A DNA stretch of 64,000 bases. It comes from Candidatus Gastranaerophilales bacterium. GTDB taxonomy: Bacteria; Cyanobacteriota; Vampirovibrionia; Gastranaerophilales; Gastranaerophilaceae. The position numbers and the translations under genes are program-made. Location of the stretch: positions 124,001 to 188,000 of the forward strand of contig CALUTI010000002.1 in the NCBI GenBank assembly GCA_944323695.1, written 5' to 3'. The notes under the pieces are model-generated. The model made no database searches, was not told the DNA's origin, and saw nothing but the letters and a program-made list of their open reading frames with translations. Below are positions 35,739-43,817 of the stretch, in pieces. Position 1 is the stretch's first letter; each line of letters opens with the position of its first letter.

Positions 35739-36515
35739 CTAGTTGTCTTTTGGTCTTGAGAGGAAATTTTTCATATCTTCCGGAAGTCTAACATTCTGGA
35801 GAGCCAGATGATATTTTCTCAAATTCGCAATGGATTCCTGTTCGTCAAGCAGATCTCTGCGCTTAATTTTTTGGGCAGGTGCATTATTAACTTTTCCGCC
35901 ATGCTTTGCAATAACTTTTGCAATCATCTCATCAATATCGGAACCGCTGACCTGATACTTTGCAGCAACGTCATCGGCTGTTGCCCCCATAGGAAGACTG
36001 TAAAGCCAATTTAAAGTTAAAGCATCACACGGAGAAATTGTTAAAATCCCTTTTTGATGAGGGGTGTACATAATATCTTTAGGAAAAGGGCTGTGTCCTA
36101 AACCCACCGCATGACCGATTTCATGAAGAATTGTGTGATAAACTTCTCCGTCATCCATATAATCACGATGGATAAGTCCGTCTGTTAATCCGATATTAAC
36201 TTCCGCGCTGTATAACCTGTTTGCGCCGTCGTAATCAAAATAGCAATGTCCTAGAGCTTTTCTTTCAACTCTTTTCCAATCAACATTAATTTGAGATTCC
36301 AAAAGTGTATTTACAACCGTAAAAGAAACCTTACCGCGCGTTGCACTCTGCCAGGCTTCAAGTGCCCTTTTAACCATTGTGCGGTAGCGGCTGTCCTGTC
36401 CCTGTTTGGAATAAAACTTCATAGGAGCAATGAAAACCTTCAACGGCATCTTGCATGTCCAGCGCATTATCCTGCCGTTTCGTAAAGACTCTTGTAAATA
36501 AGTTTCCTTCTTCAT
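35739..36515 (-). CDS. Matrixin-like zinc metalloprotease
   Basis: 258 residues from ATG 36515 (upstream starts give an implausible extension). The zinc site H-E-I-G-H-A-V-G-L-G-H has H131, E132, H135 and H141, and the Met-turn is D-I-M-Y (M149), as in matrixins and other metzincins. The C-terminus has a helix and a charged tail. No signal peptide is evident, so it is either cytosolic or exported by another route. It lies alone between accD and the divergent YbaB gene. Confidence 0.82.
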   Translation of the reverse strand: MKKETYLQESLRNGRIMRWTCKMPLKVFIAPMKFYSKQGQDSRYRTMVKRALEAWQSATRGKVSFTVVNTLLESQINVDWKRVERKALGHCYFDYDGANRLYSAEVNIGLTDGLIHRDYMDDGEVYHTILHEIGHAVGLGHSPFPKDIMYTPHQKGILTISPCDALTLNWLYSLPMGATADDVAAKYQVSGSDIDEMIAKVIAKHGGKVNNAPAQKIKRRDLLDEQESIANLRKYHLALQNVRLPEDMKNFLSRPKDN

Positions 36516-36525
36516 ATTTTTATTG

Positions 36526-36531
36526 TATAAT
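36526..36531 (+). promoter_or_regulatory. -10 box for the YbaB-recR operon
   Basis: A perfect TATAAT lies 35 bases before the YbaB start; the -35 region (TTTCCT around 36503) is weak. A short divergent region of 51 bases separates it from the protease gene. Confidence 0.45.
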
Positions 36532-36566
36532 AAAAATTGATACAGGGCTATAGGGAGGAAAATTAC

Positions 36567-36899
36567 ATGAATATCATGCAAATGATGAAACAGGCTCAAA
36601 ATTTACAAAAAAAATTAAAAGAAACACAGGATGAGCTTTCTAAAACAGAAGTAACAGGCGAAGCTGCAGGCGGCGCGGTTGTTGTAACCTGCGACGGCCA
36701 GGGCAGATTTAAGTCAATCAAACTGAAACCGGAAGCGCTTGACCCTGATAATCCGGAATCCGTTGATCCTGAGGTTGTTGAAATGGTTGAAGATATTGTA
36801 ACAACCGCAATTTTGCAGGCAAGCATGAAAGCAACCGACTTGATGGAAAGCAAAATGAAATCAGTTACGGGCGGAATTAACATTCCGGGATTATTCTAA
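36567..36899 (+). CDS. YbaB/EbfC nucleoid-associated protein
   Basis: 110 residues from ATG 36567, preceded by GGGAGGAAAA. Features of the YbaB family: M-M-K-Q-A-Q-N-L-Q-K-K-L, G-G-A-V-V-V-T-C-D-G-Q, and S-V-D-P-E-V-V-E-M-V-E-D. These homodimers bind DNA and are nearly always next to recR, as here, where the stop overlaps the recR start (TAATG). Confidence 0.93.
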   Translation: MNIMQMMKQAQNLQKKLKETQDELSKTEVTGEAAGGAVVVTCDGQGRFKSIKLKPEALDPDNPESVDPEVVEMVEDIVTTAILQASMKATDLMESKMKSVTGGINIPGLF

Positions 36900-37510: not shown

Positions 37511-38284
37511 CTAAAGTATCATATCATCTTTAATTTTCCAATTGTTACGCAAAATGTATGAAAAGCAATAATAGCCTCTGCCGCCGTCAGAACAATCTTC
37601 TTCAACCTCTTCTGTGGTCTTATCATTTCCAGCAGGAAGCAAAAGTCTGTTATTAAAAATAAAAACAAACACATCCTGCCCTATAACATTTGGTCCGTCA
37701 TCACCGTTCACATCAACATGCATAACCAAGCCGGGAGCATCCATTTTCACGCCAAAGCTATCTTCAATATCACTGGCAGATGCTCCGTCCATATTTACAT
37801 AGACATTATCAAAAGTTCTGAAAACAATAATATTACTTCCAATACCTTTGGTACCGGAATCCCAGATGGCAGTCTGGCCGTTTAACTGTTTTGTAACACC
37901 TTCCGAATGCCAGCAGCCGGTAGATTCAATACAGTCCTTTTGTATTCTCAAATTCGGTTTCAGATAGTAGTTATACCAATTTACCATACTGTCAGTATTT
38001 CCATCAGAAAAATTAACGTAAGAATACCCCAAATTATCAGCTACTGTCCGCTGAATTGCCTGCTGCAAAGTAGAATATGTTTTTTTCAACTTGGCAATAG
38101 AAACAGCACGTCTGTATTCTTTAGTCAGTGTAGGAATGGTCATTGCCGCAACAACACCTATTATCCCTAGAGTAATTAAAACTTCCGCCAAAGTAAACGC
38201 TGTCCGACGCTTTTTGTCAGACGCAGCCAAATGCATAGCGTCTTCAGTTAAAGTAAATGCCTTTTTAGTATAAAATTTGAACAT
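37511..38284 (-). CDS. Type IV prepilin-like protein with duplicated leader motif
   Basis: 257 residues from ATG 38284, inside the end of the YjbQ gene (20-base overlap). The true prepilin leader is R-T-A-F-T-L-A-E-V-L-I-T-L-G at 27-40 with E34 at +5 and Ala rather than Gly before the cut, then a hydrophobic helix. An earlier A-F-T-L-T-E at 9-14 looks like a second copy of the leader. The C-terminal globular part has Cys pairs and D-rich loops. This A-F-T-L-A-E group is common in Gastranaerophilales-like genomes. It would be a pseudopilin or minor pilin. Confidence 0.85.
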   Translation of the reverse strand: MFKFYTKKAFTLTEDAMHLAASDKKRRTAFTLAEVLITLGIIGVVAAMTIPTLTKEYRRAVSIAKLKKTYSTLQQAIQRTVADNLGYSYVNFSDGNTDSMVNWYNYYLKPNLRIQKDCIESTGCWHSEGVTKQLNGQTAIWDSGTKGIGSNIIVFRTFDNVYVNMDGASASDIEDSFGVKMDAPGLVMHVDVNGDDGPNVIGQDVFVFIFNNRLLLPAGNDKTTEEVEEDCSDGGRGYYCFSYILRNNWKIKDDMIL

Positions 38285-38681
38285 GAACCGTCCTTGTCCT
38301 TGCTTTGTTATCAAAATCAACCAACACAATCTGCTGCCACTGTCCAAGCTGCAATGCACCATCCAGCAATGGTACCATTGTTGAATTACCCACAATTGAA
38401 GCCCTAACGTGCGCATATCCGTTGCCATCATGCCACGTATCATCATGGTGGTAAGCCTTATTAATCGGTGCAATTCTATCAAGTGCTTCCGGAAGATCAA
38501 CCAGCAGTCCCGGTTCAAACTCGATATTTGTAATCGAAACTGTGCTGCCTGCAACATACACATAGACAACCGCATTATGCAAAGAATGTCTGTAAACAAG
38601 GTTTTTGACATCATTTGTGACATCAATAATATCGTTATTGCCTTTTGTGTGCACAGAAAATTTTTCGCAAATTATTGTCAT
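38265..38681 (-). CDS. YjbQ/UPF0047 family protein
   Basis: 138 residues with the UPF0047 motifs: G-S-T-V-S-I-T-N-I-E (about 45-54), Y-H-H-D-D-T-W-H-D-G-N-G-Y-A-H-V-R and a D-G-A-L-Q-L-G-Q-W-Q end. Members have a metal site of conserved His residues and rescue thiamine-phosphate mutants in E. coli; the real role is not settled. It overlaps the amidohydrolase-like gene by four bases and the prepilin by 20. Confidence 0.9.
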   Translation of the reverse strand: MTIICEKFSVHTKGNNDIIDVTNDVKNLVYRHSLHNAVVYVYVAGSTVSITNIEFEPGLLVDLPEALDRIAPINKAYHHDDTWHDGNGYAHVRASIVGNSTMVPLLDGALQLGQWQQIVLVDFDNKARTRTVHVQILY

Positions 38682-39991
38682 AAACTAAATCTTATATCTC
38701 CCCTTTTTACTATTTTTCTGCCTTTAGAATAAGTTGAATAAGGGAAATGCTTATTTACGATAGCTGAGTAATCCTCGCCATCTTCAAGCTTAAACACGTT
38801 GAAATCAGCATCTTTGCCGACTTCAATTGATCCTGTAACATGGTCTAAACGTAAAATTTTTGCAGGATAAATTGTCAAATACTTTAACAATTCCACAGCA
38901 TCAAGCTGATTTTCACTGTTGCATTCAACTGCAAGCTTCAAAAGGCTGTAATCCTTTTCCGGCGCAAAACTCTGGGTTGAGAACCCGAAATTTTTGCCGA
39001 AATATTTCAAAACAGTTGAAAAATCAAGTTTTTTATTGCAGATTTCATCGCTGTATCTTGGCTGATAAACGAATTTGACACCTGTTTCAGCGAGTTCTTC
39101 CAATTGATTATCGGAAACATAATTTGCATTAGCAACAATAACCTTTTTGGTCAAAACTTTCAGCCCGTCAAGATATTCAACGGGATCTTCCATACGCTTG
39201 TACGGCGTAATTTTTCTGAACCCCATAAATTTATGCAATAAATCAATATCGGAAAATCCGTGCTCCAGCCATTCCATCTCGTCCTGAGCTTCCGCAAAAC
39301 GTGTCATCAAAAGCATGTTATGCTTGCGGCAGTATTTGGAAAACAATTCCCATAATTTTTTATGCACACCGGGAATTGAATGAAGCATAATCCCGATATG
39401 CGTATTTTCGCCTTTATGGAAAACGTAATTTTCAACCTTATCACGCAAAGCCTTAAATTTTTTCTTGCTTTTGTCTGAGCTGTCCGCGAAAACCTCAAAA
39501 AACATGTAATTTTTAATAGGCGCCCTGTTAATAATTTCAAAATACTTATCCTCTTTTGAAACCTGAGCAATACATGTAGTGCCGGCTTTGACGGAAGCTG
39601 CCAGACCGTCTTTAAAGGATTGAATTTTTTCATTACGTCCGAGCACAAAATAATCACTCAGAATATTAGCCCATTTTAAGCTGTAATTATCAGGTTTTAC
39701 TCCTGCAAAAGTGTACTTTTTGGCAATAGTCTGGAAAAATTTTTTCAAATTATTTTTAACCCCGACGGGCTTTGTTTTTCCGATATCCGTATACTGGTAC
39801 TGGGTAAACATGTCAATAAACCCGGGCGTTACAACTGAATTTCCGAGATCCTTCACGTATTTTTCTTCAAATTTTGAAGTTTCCCGGTTCGGAATTATCT
39901 CTACAAATTTGCCCTCATCAACGACCAGCGCCATATTTTCAAGCACCTCGCCCGTTGAAGTTAATATCCATCTTGATTTATAACACTTCAT
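38678..39991 (-). CDS. Amidohydrolase-superfamily pseudoenzyme (metal ligands lost)
   Basis: 437 residues with the full TrzA/SsnA-like fold: N-terminal and C-terminal strand halves around a barrel, P-G-F-I-D at 56-60 and the closing G-S-I-E-V-G-K-D-A-D-F-N-V. The metal residues are missing: the usual H-x-H after P-G-F-V is F62-T-Q64, the H of the M-H-x-A-E motif is R230, the A-H-C histidine is N287 and the G-T-D aspartate is Q339. It is therefore probably not a hydrolase. The rest of the chain is intact, so it may bind a ligand or partner. Coupled to YjbQ. Confidence 0.8.
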   Translation of the reverse strand: MKCYKSRWILTSTGEVLENMALVVDEGKFVEIIPNRETSKFEEKYVKDLGNSVVTPGFIDMFTQYQYTDIGKTKPVGVKNNLKKFFQTIAKKYTFAGVKPDNYSLKWANILSDYFVLGRNEKIQSFKDGLAASVKAGTTCIAQVSKEDKYFEIINRAPIKNYMFFEVFADSSDKSKKKFKALRDKVENYVFHKGENTHIGIMLHSIPGVHKKLWELFSKYCRKHNMLLMTRFAEAQDEMEWLEHGFSDIDLLHKFMGFRKITPYKRMEDPVEYLDGLKVLTKKVIVANANYVSDNQLEELAETGVKFVYQPRYSDEICNKKLDFSTVLKYFGKNFGFSTQSFAPEKDYSLLKLAVECNSENQLDAVELLKYLTIYPAKILRLDHVTGSIEVGKDADFNVFKLEDGEDYSAIVNKHFPYSTYSKGRKIVKRGDIRFSL

Positions 39992-40057: not shown

Positions 40058-41341
40058 TTACGAATACATCTGATCTTCCCAGTATTCCATTTCAAGATGA
40101 CCTATGACAATTGTGTCGCCGTCTTTTACACCCTGTTTTTTAAGTTCTTCAAACACACCCATGCCGGTCAAAATATTTTGAAGTCTTATAATCTGCTCGG
40201 TGTTTCTGGCGTCCGTAACTGCCGCGAGCCGTTTTATTTTACCGCCGTCCACGATATATGTATCTTTGGCGGCTTTATAAACTTCAAAAGCGCTGTCGTC
40301 GTTGTTATAAGCGTCCAAATCTTCTTCAACCACAATATCTGACACGTGATGTTCAATCTCATCAACTTTAACCGCCATAAAATCAAGCAATTTATCAAGA
40401 TTTTCGCCTGTTACGGCAGAAATGAGGAAAACATCTTTAGCGGCTTTTTTAAACTCGGCTGACAATGCATCCTGTTTTGTTTTATCAACCGCATCGATTT
40501 TATTCAAAACAACGATTTGATAGAGATTGGCGAGCTTTTCGGAATGTTTTTCAAGCTCTGAATTAATTATTTCGTAATTTTTCAAAGGATCATCAGCTGT
40601 AATATCGACAAGGTGAACAAGGAAACGACAGCGCTCAATATGGCGCAGAAATTCATGCCCTAACCCAACCCCTTCCGACGCTCCTTCAATAAGCCCCGGA
40701 ATATCCGCAACCACATAACCATCACCCGAGCGCTTTTTAACCACACCTAAATTTGGAATTAACGTAGTAAAAGGATAATCCGCAATTTTTGGTTTAGCGG
40801 AAGAAATTCTGCTAATAAGTGTTGATTTTCCTGCATTCGGCATACCTAAAAGCCCGACATCGGCAATTAATTTTAATTCAAGTTCAAGCTCTCGCTCAAT
40901 TCCCGGTTCACCCGGTTCACAAAACTGCGGAGCACGTTTTTGAGCGGTCGCAAATCGTGCATTACCGCGTCCGCCCCTGCCGCCTTTTGCGACAAGAACT
41001 TTTTGTTCATGTTCCGTTAAATCAGCAATTGCGTTTCCTGTTTTCAAATCTCTTACGACAGTTCCGACAGGAACCTTTATAACCAAATCTTTTGCACATT
41101 TTCCATGCATATTTTTAATTCCGCCGTTTTCACCGTTTTCGGCTTTAAAAACAGATTTATATTTAAAATCCATAAGAGTTGACATATTTTCATCTGCAAT
41201 CAAATAGACATCACCGCCTGAGCCGCCGTCACCGCCTGCGGGGCCTCCTTTATCAACGTATTTTTCGCGGCGCCAGGCTACCATACCGTTTCCGCCCCTG
41301 CCTGAAATTATTCTTATTCTGGTTTTGTCTAAAAATTGCAT
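40058..41341 (-). CDS. obgE: GTPase Obg
   Basis: 427 residues. The glycine-rich Obg domain (residues 1-158, G-G-x-G-G-S-G-G-D-V), then the G domain with G-M-P-N-A-G-K-S-T, D-I-P-G-L-I-E-G-A, N-K-I-D and the S-A-V-T-G switch, and a C-terminal extension of the Obg type with an acidic part. It supports large ribosomal subunit assembly and stress control. It starts 30 bases from the divergent tsaD gene with AGAGGAAAA upstream. Confidence 0.97.
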   Translation of the reverse strand: MQFLDKTRIRIISGRGGNGMVAWRREKYVDKGGPAGGDGGSGGDVYLIADENMSTLMDFKYKSVFKAENGENGGIKNMHGKCAKDLVIKVPVGTVVRDLKTGNAIADLTEHEQKVLVAKGGRGGRGNARFATAQKRAPQFCEPGEPGIERELELELKLIADVGLLGMPNAGKSTLISRISSAKPKIADYPFTTLIPNLGVVKKRSGDGYVVADIPGLIEGASEGVGLGHEFLRHIERCRFLVHLVDITADDPLKNYEIINSELEKHSEKLANLYQIVVLNKIDAVDKTKQDALSAEFKKAAKDVFLISAVTGENLDKLLDFMAVKVDEIEHHVSDIVVEEDLDAYNNDDSAFEVYKAAKDTYIVDGGKIKRLAAVTDARNTEQIIRLQNILTGMGVFEELKKQGVKDGDTIVIGHLEMEYWEDQMYS

Positions 41342-42842: not shown

Positions 42843-43817
42843 TTATTTTACACAACTTAATAAATTTGAATCAACCACCGATAAAATTTTATCAATAATT
42901 TCTTTTTCAAATTGAATATTAAAGGCATTATTAATTTCCCTGATAAAATAACACGGACTTGTAACGTTAACCTCTAAAATCTTTCCTTCAACCACGTCAA
43001 GCCCTGCCATATAAATTCCGCGTTTATTAAGCTCGCGCGCAAGGGCAGTAAAATTTTCCTTTTCGGAAGGTGTCAGAACATCTTTTTTAATACAGTCGTC
43101 TTTATGCTCATTGAACTTAAAGTCATTATTGCTCGGGAGTTTTCTGACACAATAGTCATAAACAGTATCACCGATAATCAGCACTCTTTTGTCGCCGTAA
43201 ACGGCAGCAGGAAGGTATTTTTGCACCATAACCATATTGGAGCCGTTATTTGTCACGGAATTAATAATAACTGATGTATTTTTGTCACCGTCTTTAAGAT
43301 ACATAACGCCTGCTCCAAAACATTTGTTCAGAGGCTTTAAGATAATCTCGTTATTTTCATGTAAAAATTCCAGAATATCAGCTTTAGATGCCGTCACAAT
43401 ATTTTTTGGCATTAAGTCATTAAACAATACCGCATGAAGCTTTTCGTTAAAATCGCGGATAGCCTTTGTATCATTCAGGATAAAGGTTTTGTTCCTGTCG
43501 ACAAAATCAAATACGTAAGTCGCGTTAATATAATCCAGATCAACCGGCGGATCCGGTCTGAACATTACGAGCTGAAAATCCTCAATTTGTCTTGTGTATT
43601 CTTTTGTTTTATCAAAAAATATGTTTCCGTTTTTCTCGTAAGAATCAAAGCCGGAGGCATAAGCAACACCGGATTTTACGGATAACTTATCAATGGTTGT
43701 GATAAAAACTTCATTCCCGCGGGACAGAAACTCCTTTATCATCCAAAAATTAGTCACCAAATCGTTGAACTCAAAATATTTAAGCTCTACCCTGTCTATA
43801 ACAAATAAAATATTCAT
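42843..43817 (-). CDS. gshB: Glutathione synthetase
   Basis: 324 residues of the ATP-grasp family: M-F-R-P-D-P-P-V-D-L-D-Y, E-I-I-L-K-P-L-N-K-C-F-G-A-G-V, M-V-Q-K-Y-L-P-A, G-D-K-R-V-L-I-I and the closing G-L-D-V-V-E-G-K-I-L-E-V-N-V-T-S-P. It joins gamma-glutamylcysteine and glycine. No gshA is in the window. Presence suggests glutathione-based redox protection, less common in strict anaerobes. Confidence 0.92.
   Translation of the reverse strand: MNILFVIDRVELKYFEFNDLVTNFWMIKEFLSRGNEVFITTIDKLSVKSGVAYASGFDSYEKNGNIFFDKTKEYTRQIEDFQLVMFRPDPPVDLDYINATYVFDFVDRNKTFILNDTKAIRDFNEKLHAVLFNDLMPKNIVTASKADILEFLHENNEIILKPLNKCFGAGVMYLKDGDKNTSVIINSVTNNGSNMVMVQKYLPAAVYGDKRVLIIGDTVYDYCVRKLPSNNDFKFNEHKDDCIKKDVLTPSEKENFTALARELNKRGIYMAGLDVVEGKILEVNVTSPCYFIREINNAFNIQFEKEIIDKILSVVDSNLLSCVK

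Follow-up and report, generated by a model that had tools for sequence, protein, structure and literature searches.

The CRMP, or dihydropyrimidinase-like, proteins keep the amidohydrolase fold after loss of the metal ligands and have a new nonenzymatic role, but they are animal cytoskeletal adaptors, unrelated in lineage and context to the bacterial protein considered here, P0001. The closest system to P0001, both as a sequence family and among solved structures, is aminofutalosine deaminase (AFLDA / MqnX; 7lkj, 7lkk and 3v7p; NF006269). P0001 has the same barrel and small beta domain and keeps the catalytic Glu, but its metal ligands are all replaced, its genome has no futalosine pathway, and it scores 96.2 bits (1.7e-27) against NF006269, its nearest curated family, where the cutoff is 320 bits. 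A further parallel is the inactive dihydroorotase of some bacterial aspartate transcarbamoylases, e.g., that of Pseudomonas putida, a member of the amidohydrolase superfamily kept as a noncatalytic subunit (PMC4581275). It belongs to a different branch of the superfamily from P0001 and has a known physical partner. Judged from sequence, P0001 is a real, lineage-wide pseudo-amidohydrolase, and the alignments leave the loss of its ancestral metal-dependent chemistry well supported.

The gene lies in a window of 64,000 nucleotides, the whole stretch of Candidatus Gastranaerophilales DNA that was analysed. The ligand columns were read by aligning P0001 with 11 relatives in which H-x-H / H / H / D is intact, and codon coordinates were computed from the ORF start at 39991:

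38678 to 39991, minus strand: P0001, predicted pseudo-amidohydrolase of 437 aa, its ancestry an aminofutalosine-deaminase-like enzyme (ORF, Pfam, AlphaFold2, structure matches)
39800 to 39808, minus strand: codons of F62-T63-Q64, once the beta1 H-x-H metal ligands (alignment)
39299 to 39301, minus strand: codon of R231, once the beta5 metal-ligand His (alignment)
39290 to 39292, minus strand: codon of E234, the catalytic Glu of H-x-x-E, unchanged in all rows (alignment)
39128 to 39130, minus strand: codon of N288, once the beta6 His (alignment)
38972 to 38974, minus strand: codon of Q340, once the beta8 metal-ligand Asp (alignment)

The superfamily metal centre consists of H-x-H on beta1, a His on beta5, a His on beta6 and an Asp on beta8. 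At these places P0001 has F62 and Q64, R231, N288 and Q340. An earlier note on this DNA rightly had all five ligands changed within an open, full-length frame; its numbering of three of them (R230, N287, Q339) was one too low each, and it did not mention E234, which is invariant in every row of the alignment. Since R231, Q64, N288 and Q340 are identical in 50 of the 50 members of the P0001 clade, the replacement is not a matter of chance, and a sequencing artefact or a private mutation is ruled out by the 50 concordant relatives. P0001 cannot assemble the superfamily metal site and is likely to be metal-free. A metal might still be held at new positions, such as H204/H210, the acids E147/E166/E234, or C318. 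H210 and the three acids vary little or not at all among the rows, and Cys318, which replaces a His, is fixed in the P0001 clade. However, the intact relatives conserve H210 and the acids just as strongly without using them as ligands, and most of the clade has Asn in place of H204; we regard a relocated site as very improbable.

P0001 matches Pfam Amidohydro_1 (PF01979) at 91.6 bits against a cutoff of 25. Its AlphaFold2 model (pLDDT 94.5, pTM 0.93) is a (beta/alpha)8 barrel with an accessory beta domain, and it matches superfamily structures at Z of about 40. Among solved structures, the aminofutalosine deaminases 3v7p and 7lkk come first (Z 40.6, rmsd ~3, ~390 residues), with the adenosine deaminase 4gbd within 1 Z of them. 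The model of an intact ortholog from family f3 (the family and genus codes f1, g1, etc., are those of the genome-search tool) has a pLDDT of 91.5 and the same first matches, at Z 44.9. Therefore, the predicted fold has been kept while the metal site is gone. Some caution in annotation follows, in that a profile match would name P0001 a metal-dependent hydrolase or an aminofutalosine-deaminase-like enzyme. Activation in a heterodimer with an intact partner amidohydrolase is ruled out, P0001 being the only Amidohydro_1 protein, and also the only AFLDA-family protein, in its own genome (G000). PF01979 matches over the cutoff are present in all 14 control genomes, and G000 has P0001 alone.

Named relatives at 94% identity mark the genome as Candidatus Gastranaerophilales (Melainabacteria). 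Orthologs are found in 82 of the 192 genomes of the order, and in 15 of the 16 of the genus to which P0001 belongs, the source genome included; the exception is 89% complete. Outside the order, no full-length relative above 35% identity was among the matches listed in a genome-contig scan. Within Candidatus Gastranaerophilales, 84 orthologs show the replacement to be fixed and graded by group, the P0001 clade lying within family f1:

f3 and f4, 11 sequences: H-[TA]-H / H / H / D, intact
f7, 2 sequences: H-T-H / S or C / H / D, the beta5 His alone lost
f1 genera g34, g35, g39 and g42, 19 sequences: H-[NA]-H / R / Y / N
g33, 2 sequences: F-A-Q / R / N / E
g1, g7 and g24-g30 (P0001 clade), 50 sequences: [FLM]-[TS]-Q / R / N / Q

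In a tree made without the ligand columns, R231 has a single origin (support 100/100), and one change is enough to account for the missing second His of H-x-H. Support for uniting f7 with f1 is weak (79/35), which allows either one or two losses of the beta5 His. The intact f3/f4 orthologs (e.g., Melainabacteria GWA2_34_9, L156; L022, L019) are full length, about 34-38% identical to P0001, and have in common with it the invariant Q66, Q143, E147, E166, H210 and E234. Orthology of the intact and degenerate forms is further supported by a dCMP-deaminase-like neighbour common to f3 g20 (intact) and f1 g39 (degenerate). In some f3 genomes, the intact gene overlaps the upstream kdsA or lies directly against it, and in other f3/f4 genomes an M16-type peptidase gene lies downstream (set L065, L066, L069, L070, L071-L074).

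The gene has not been left to decay. Over 15 pairs with a dS of 0.05-1, the Nei-Gojobori dN/dS reaches 0.081 at most, with a median of 0.054, and the value for YjbQ, encoded next door, is the same 0.054. P0001 thus has the two marks of a pseudoenzyme: metal-binding residues absent across a lineage (50/50 clade sequences), with the catalytic Glu E234 kept, and retention by purifying selection. A pseudogene or relaxed selection is ruled out by this dN/dS and by the fixed residues. The ortholog alignment and selection test that the earlier note proposed have both gone in its favour, the ligand changes being fixed across genera of the lineage; intact orthologs of the kind it set against its own reading do exist, in f3 and f4, but the relaxed selection it paired with them is not seen. 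The idea of a decaying relic, a former enzyme heading to pseudogene after loss of the menaquinone pathway, could draw on the stepwise ligand loss, the missing futalosine pathway and the repeated loss of the whole gene described below. It is already contradicted by the low dN/dS, the uninterrupted frames in all members of the P0001 clade, the full-length fold and the fixation of the altered positions, and we find it scarcely credible.

Selection has acted on the pocket in particular. The active-site face was defined as the C-terminal ends of the barrel strands, taken from the strand ends predicted by AlphaFold2 rather than from measured distances. Its entropy within the P0001 clade is 0.437, versus 0.798 for all sites (p 0.0004) and 0.634 for the opposite face, and the difference is still significant when the five ligand sites are left out (p 0.0018). 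The intact group and the P0001 clade are fixed for different residues at 24 positions, nine of them on the active-site face and one on the opposite face (Fisher p 0.0004 for the former); besides the ligands, these fixed changes include C310Q, S313Y and G338S. Since the active-site face is more conserved and the fixed changes are concentrated there, we conclude that the pocket was remodelled. A candidate ligand pocket at the remodelled barrel mouth would comprise Q64, Q66, R231, E234, N288, N290, Y313, Q340 and S341.

The same residues might instead make a new metal-free enzyme, with E234 and R231, the amides Q64/N288/Q340 and the conserved S341/Y313 catalysing a different reaction in the same pocket. 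The invariance of E234 in all rows fits new chemistry as well and to that extent counts against a binding protein; the replacement residues are fixed 50/50 in the clade and clustered at the barrel mouth. Reviews, such as one of pseudoenzymes in general, also allow that these may catalyse with migrated residues (PMC10211241). But the make-up of the ligand sites differs among the sister clades (HxH/R/Y/N, F-A-Q/R/N/E, FTQ/R/N/Q and that of f7), where a uniform centre would be expected, and there is no pathway context. We consider a new enzyme unlikely, although the likeliest of the alternatives to a binding protein.

The distribution of the futalosine pathway for menaquinone (vitamin K2) coincides with the state of the ligands. 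Every genome with the intact form carries futalosine-pathway menaquinone genes. The mqnA family (PF02621) is present in 10 of these 11 genomes (the eleventh is 80% complete) and in none of the 24 tested with the degenerate form, and the MqnE/MqnC-type radical SAM family (TIGR03700) in 11/11 intact and 0/11 degenerate genomes. One f4 protein over the MqnE cutoff is encoded directly beside an mqnA gene. P0001 therefore differs from the intact f3/f4 orthologs twice over: they keep H-x-H / H / H / D and sit in futalosine-pathway genomes, whereas its own genome, G000, has no match to PF02621 or TIGR03700. The tested f5 and f6 genomes, none of which has a P0001 ortholog, are also without the pathway. 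The tree has just one or two changes of pathway and ligand state, so the coincidence is not independent in the statistical sense; it is suggestive and does not amount to a test.

An ancestral role as aminofutalosine deaminase fits this distribution. The intact forms themselves score ~100-180 bits against the AFLDA equivalog cutoff of 320. The reaction stays unproven because futalosine hydrolase (TIGR03664) was not found in the f3/f4 genomes searched (G026, G027, G032, G033, G036, G044, G053) and the intact gene is not adjacent to mqn genes. In the f3/f4 genomes with mqnA and MqnE/MqnC-type genes, the nucleosidase step is unaccounted for. Family f2 has a separate, intact aminofutalosine-deaminase-like gene directly beside an mqnA-family gene (L266:634-2572, genome G031; G025:C19); therefore, the order holds two separate lineages of this type of enzyme. 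A literature search gave no paper linking Melainabacteria with futalosine and none describing an inactive aminofutalosine deaminase.

The reading that we prefer, at a probability of about 0.6, is that P0001 is a pseudo-deaminase, an enzyme orphaned from its pathway and kept as a metal-free protein that binds probably a nucleoside-like small molecule. In outline, an amidohydrolase of the aminofutalosine/adenosine deaminase type, a zinc-type deaminase, would have been inherited vertically in the order. The order of the losses is visible in the sequences: the beta5 His was replaced first, in lineages without the futalosine pathway, by Ser or Cys in f7 and by Arg once at the base of f1; the beta6 His and beta8 Asp followed; and the H-x-H pair went last, in the P0001 clade. 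P0001 probably has a new, metal-free job; instead of hydrolysing a substrate, it would serve as a sensor, a carrier or an assembly partner. Much of this agrees with the earlier note, which proposed a kept, noncatalytic fold with a binding or regulatory role. The kept fold and the lost metal chemistry stand, and the conserved pocket face makes such a role plausible.

More tentatively, and with somewhat less than even confidence, the family may be read as a graded natural series in which an enzyme orphaned by the loss of menaquinone synthesis became a metal-free receptor, or else a new enzyme, by way of intermediates that sister genera still carry. If so, the series of intact, one ligand lost, three lost and all lost would be a functional shift within one protein family. 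Studies of how an enzyme is converted after pathway loss usually have only the start and the end to work from; here, one bacterial order contains at least four ligand states. These go in step with the lack of any recognisable pathway, so that the sequence of events and what the protein does at each stage can be tested on real proteins.

The neighbourhood of the gene bears on the question of a partner. Its flanking genes are as follows:

38265 to 38681, minus strand: YjbQ / UPF0047 protein, 138 aa (Pfam PF01894, 103.8 bits), overlapping the P0001 stop by 4 bp
40058 to 41341, minus strand: presumed Obg GTPase, upstream of P0001 and codirectional across a 66 bp gap; the usual left neighbour in the clade, its position conserved (tblastn)

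The name Obg, like all the names here other than UPF0047, is a presumptive family assignment. The usual order in the clade is what we take to be tsaD (divergent), obg, the P0001 gene and yjbQ, frequently followed by gpmI and an SNF2 helicase. Most of the clade shows the 4-bp overlap with yjbQ as well, and the two genes are probably cotranscribed. On this basis, P0001 could be a structural or assembly partner acting through its surface, possibly with the cotranslated YjbQ, for which the inactive dihydroorotase inside the aspartate transcarbamoylase holoenzyme is a precedent (PMC4581275). However, nine loci examined lack the P0001 gene and have yjbQ after obg, while about six genomes of g24 and g27 have the P0001 ortholog and no yjbQ match anywhere. 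Since each gene has been lost without the other, they are probably not obligate partners, and an obligate YjbQ complex is weakened as an explanation. The sister clades with H-x-H retained have no adjacent yjbQ, and the conservation of P0001 is concentrated in the pocket face rather than spread. We consider such a partnership decidedly unlikely, more so than a new enzyme, and continue to prefer the metal-free binding protein. A literature search on YjbQ gave no functional lead. On an Obg tree, presence of the P0001 gene changes at least four times, most simply by loss. Since the rest of the locus stayed each time, the function of P0001 appears dispensable.

The earlier note had also coupled the gene in an operon with both yjbQ and a prepilin gene. 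The overlap with yjbQ is real, but the link is loose, and the prepilin-like gene is local and not a conserved neighbour; the operon therefore means less than that note proposed. The prepilin-like ORF (window 37511-38626, minus strand) has two candidate prepilin-type motifs in a single frame, KKAFTLTE and RRTAFTLAE, and an ambiguous start. Elsewhere in the window, 35739-36599 (minus strand) encodes, in this gut Melainabacterium, a Matrixin-like (Peptidase_M10) metallopeptidase whose HExxHxxGxxH motif is intact. At 42843-43817 (minus strand) is an ATP-grasp protein resembling glutathione synthetase (GSH-S_ATP, 156.9 bits), which many relatives also conserve close to obg/tsaD.
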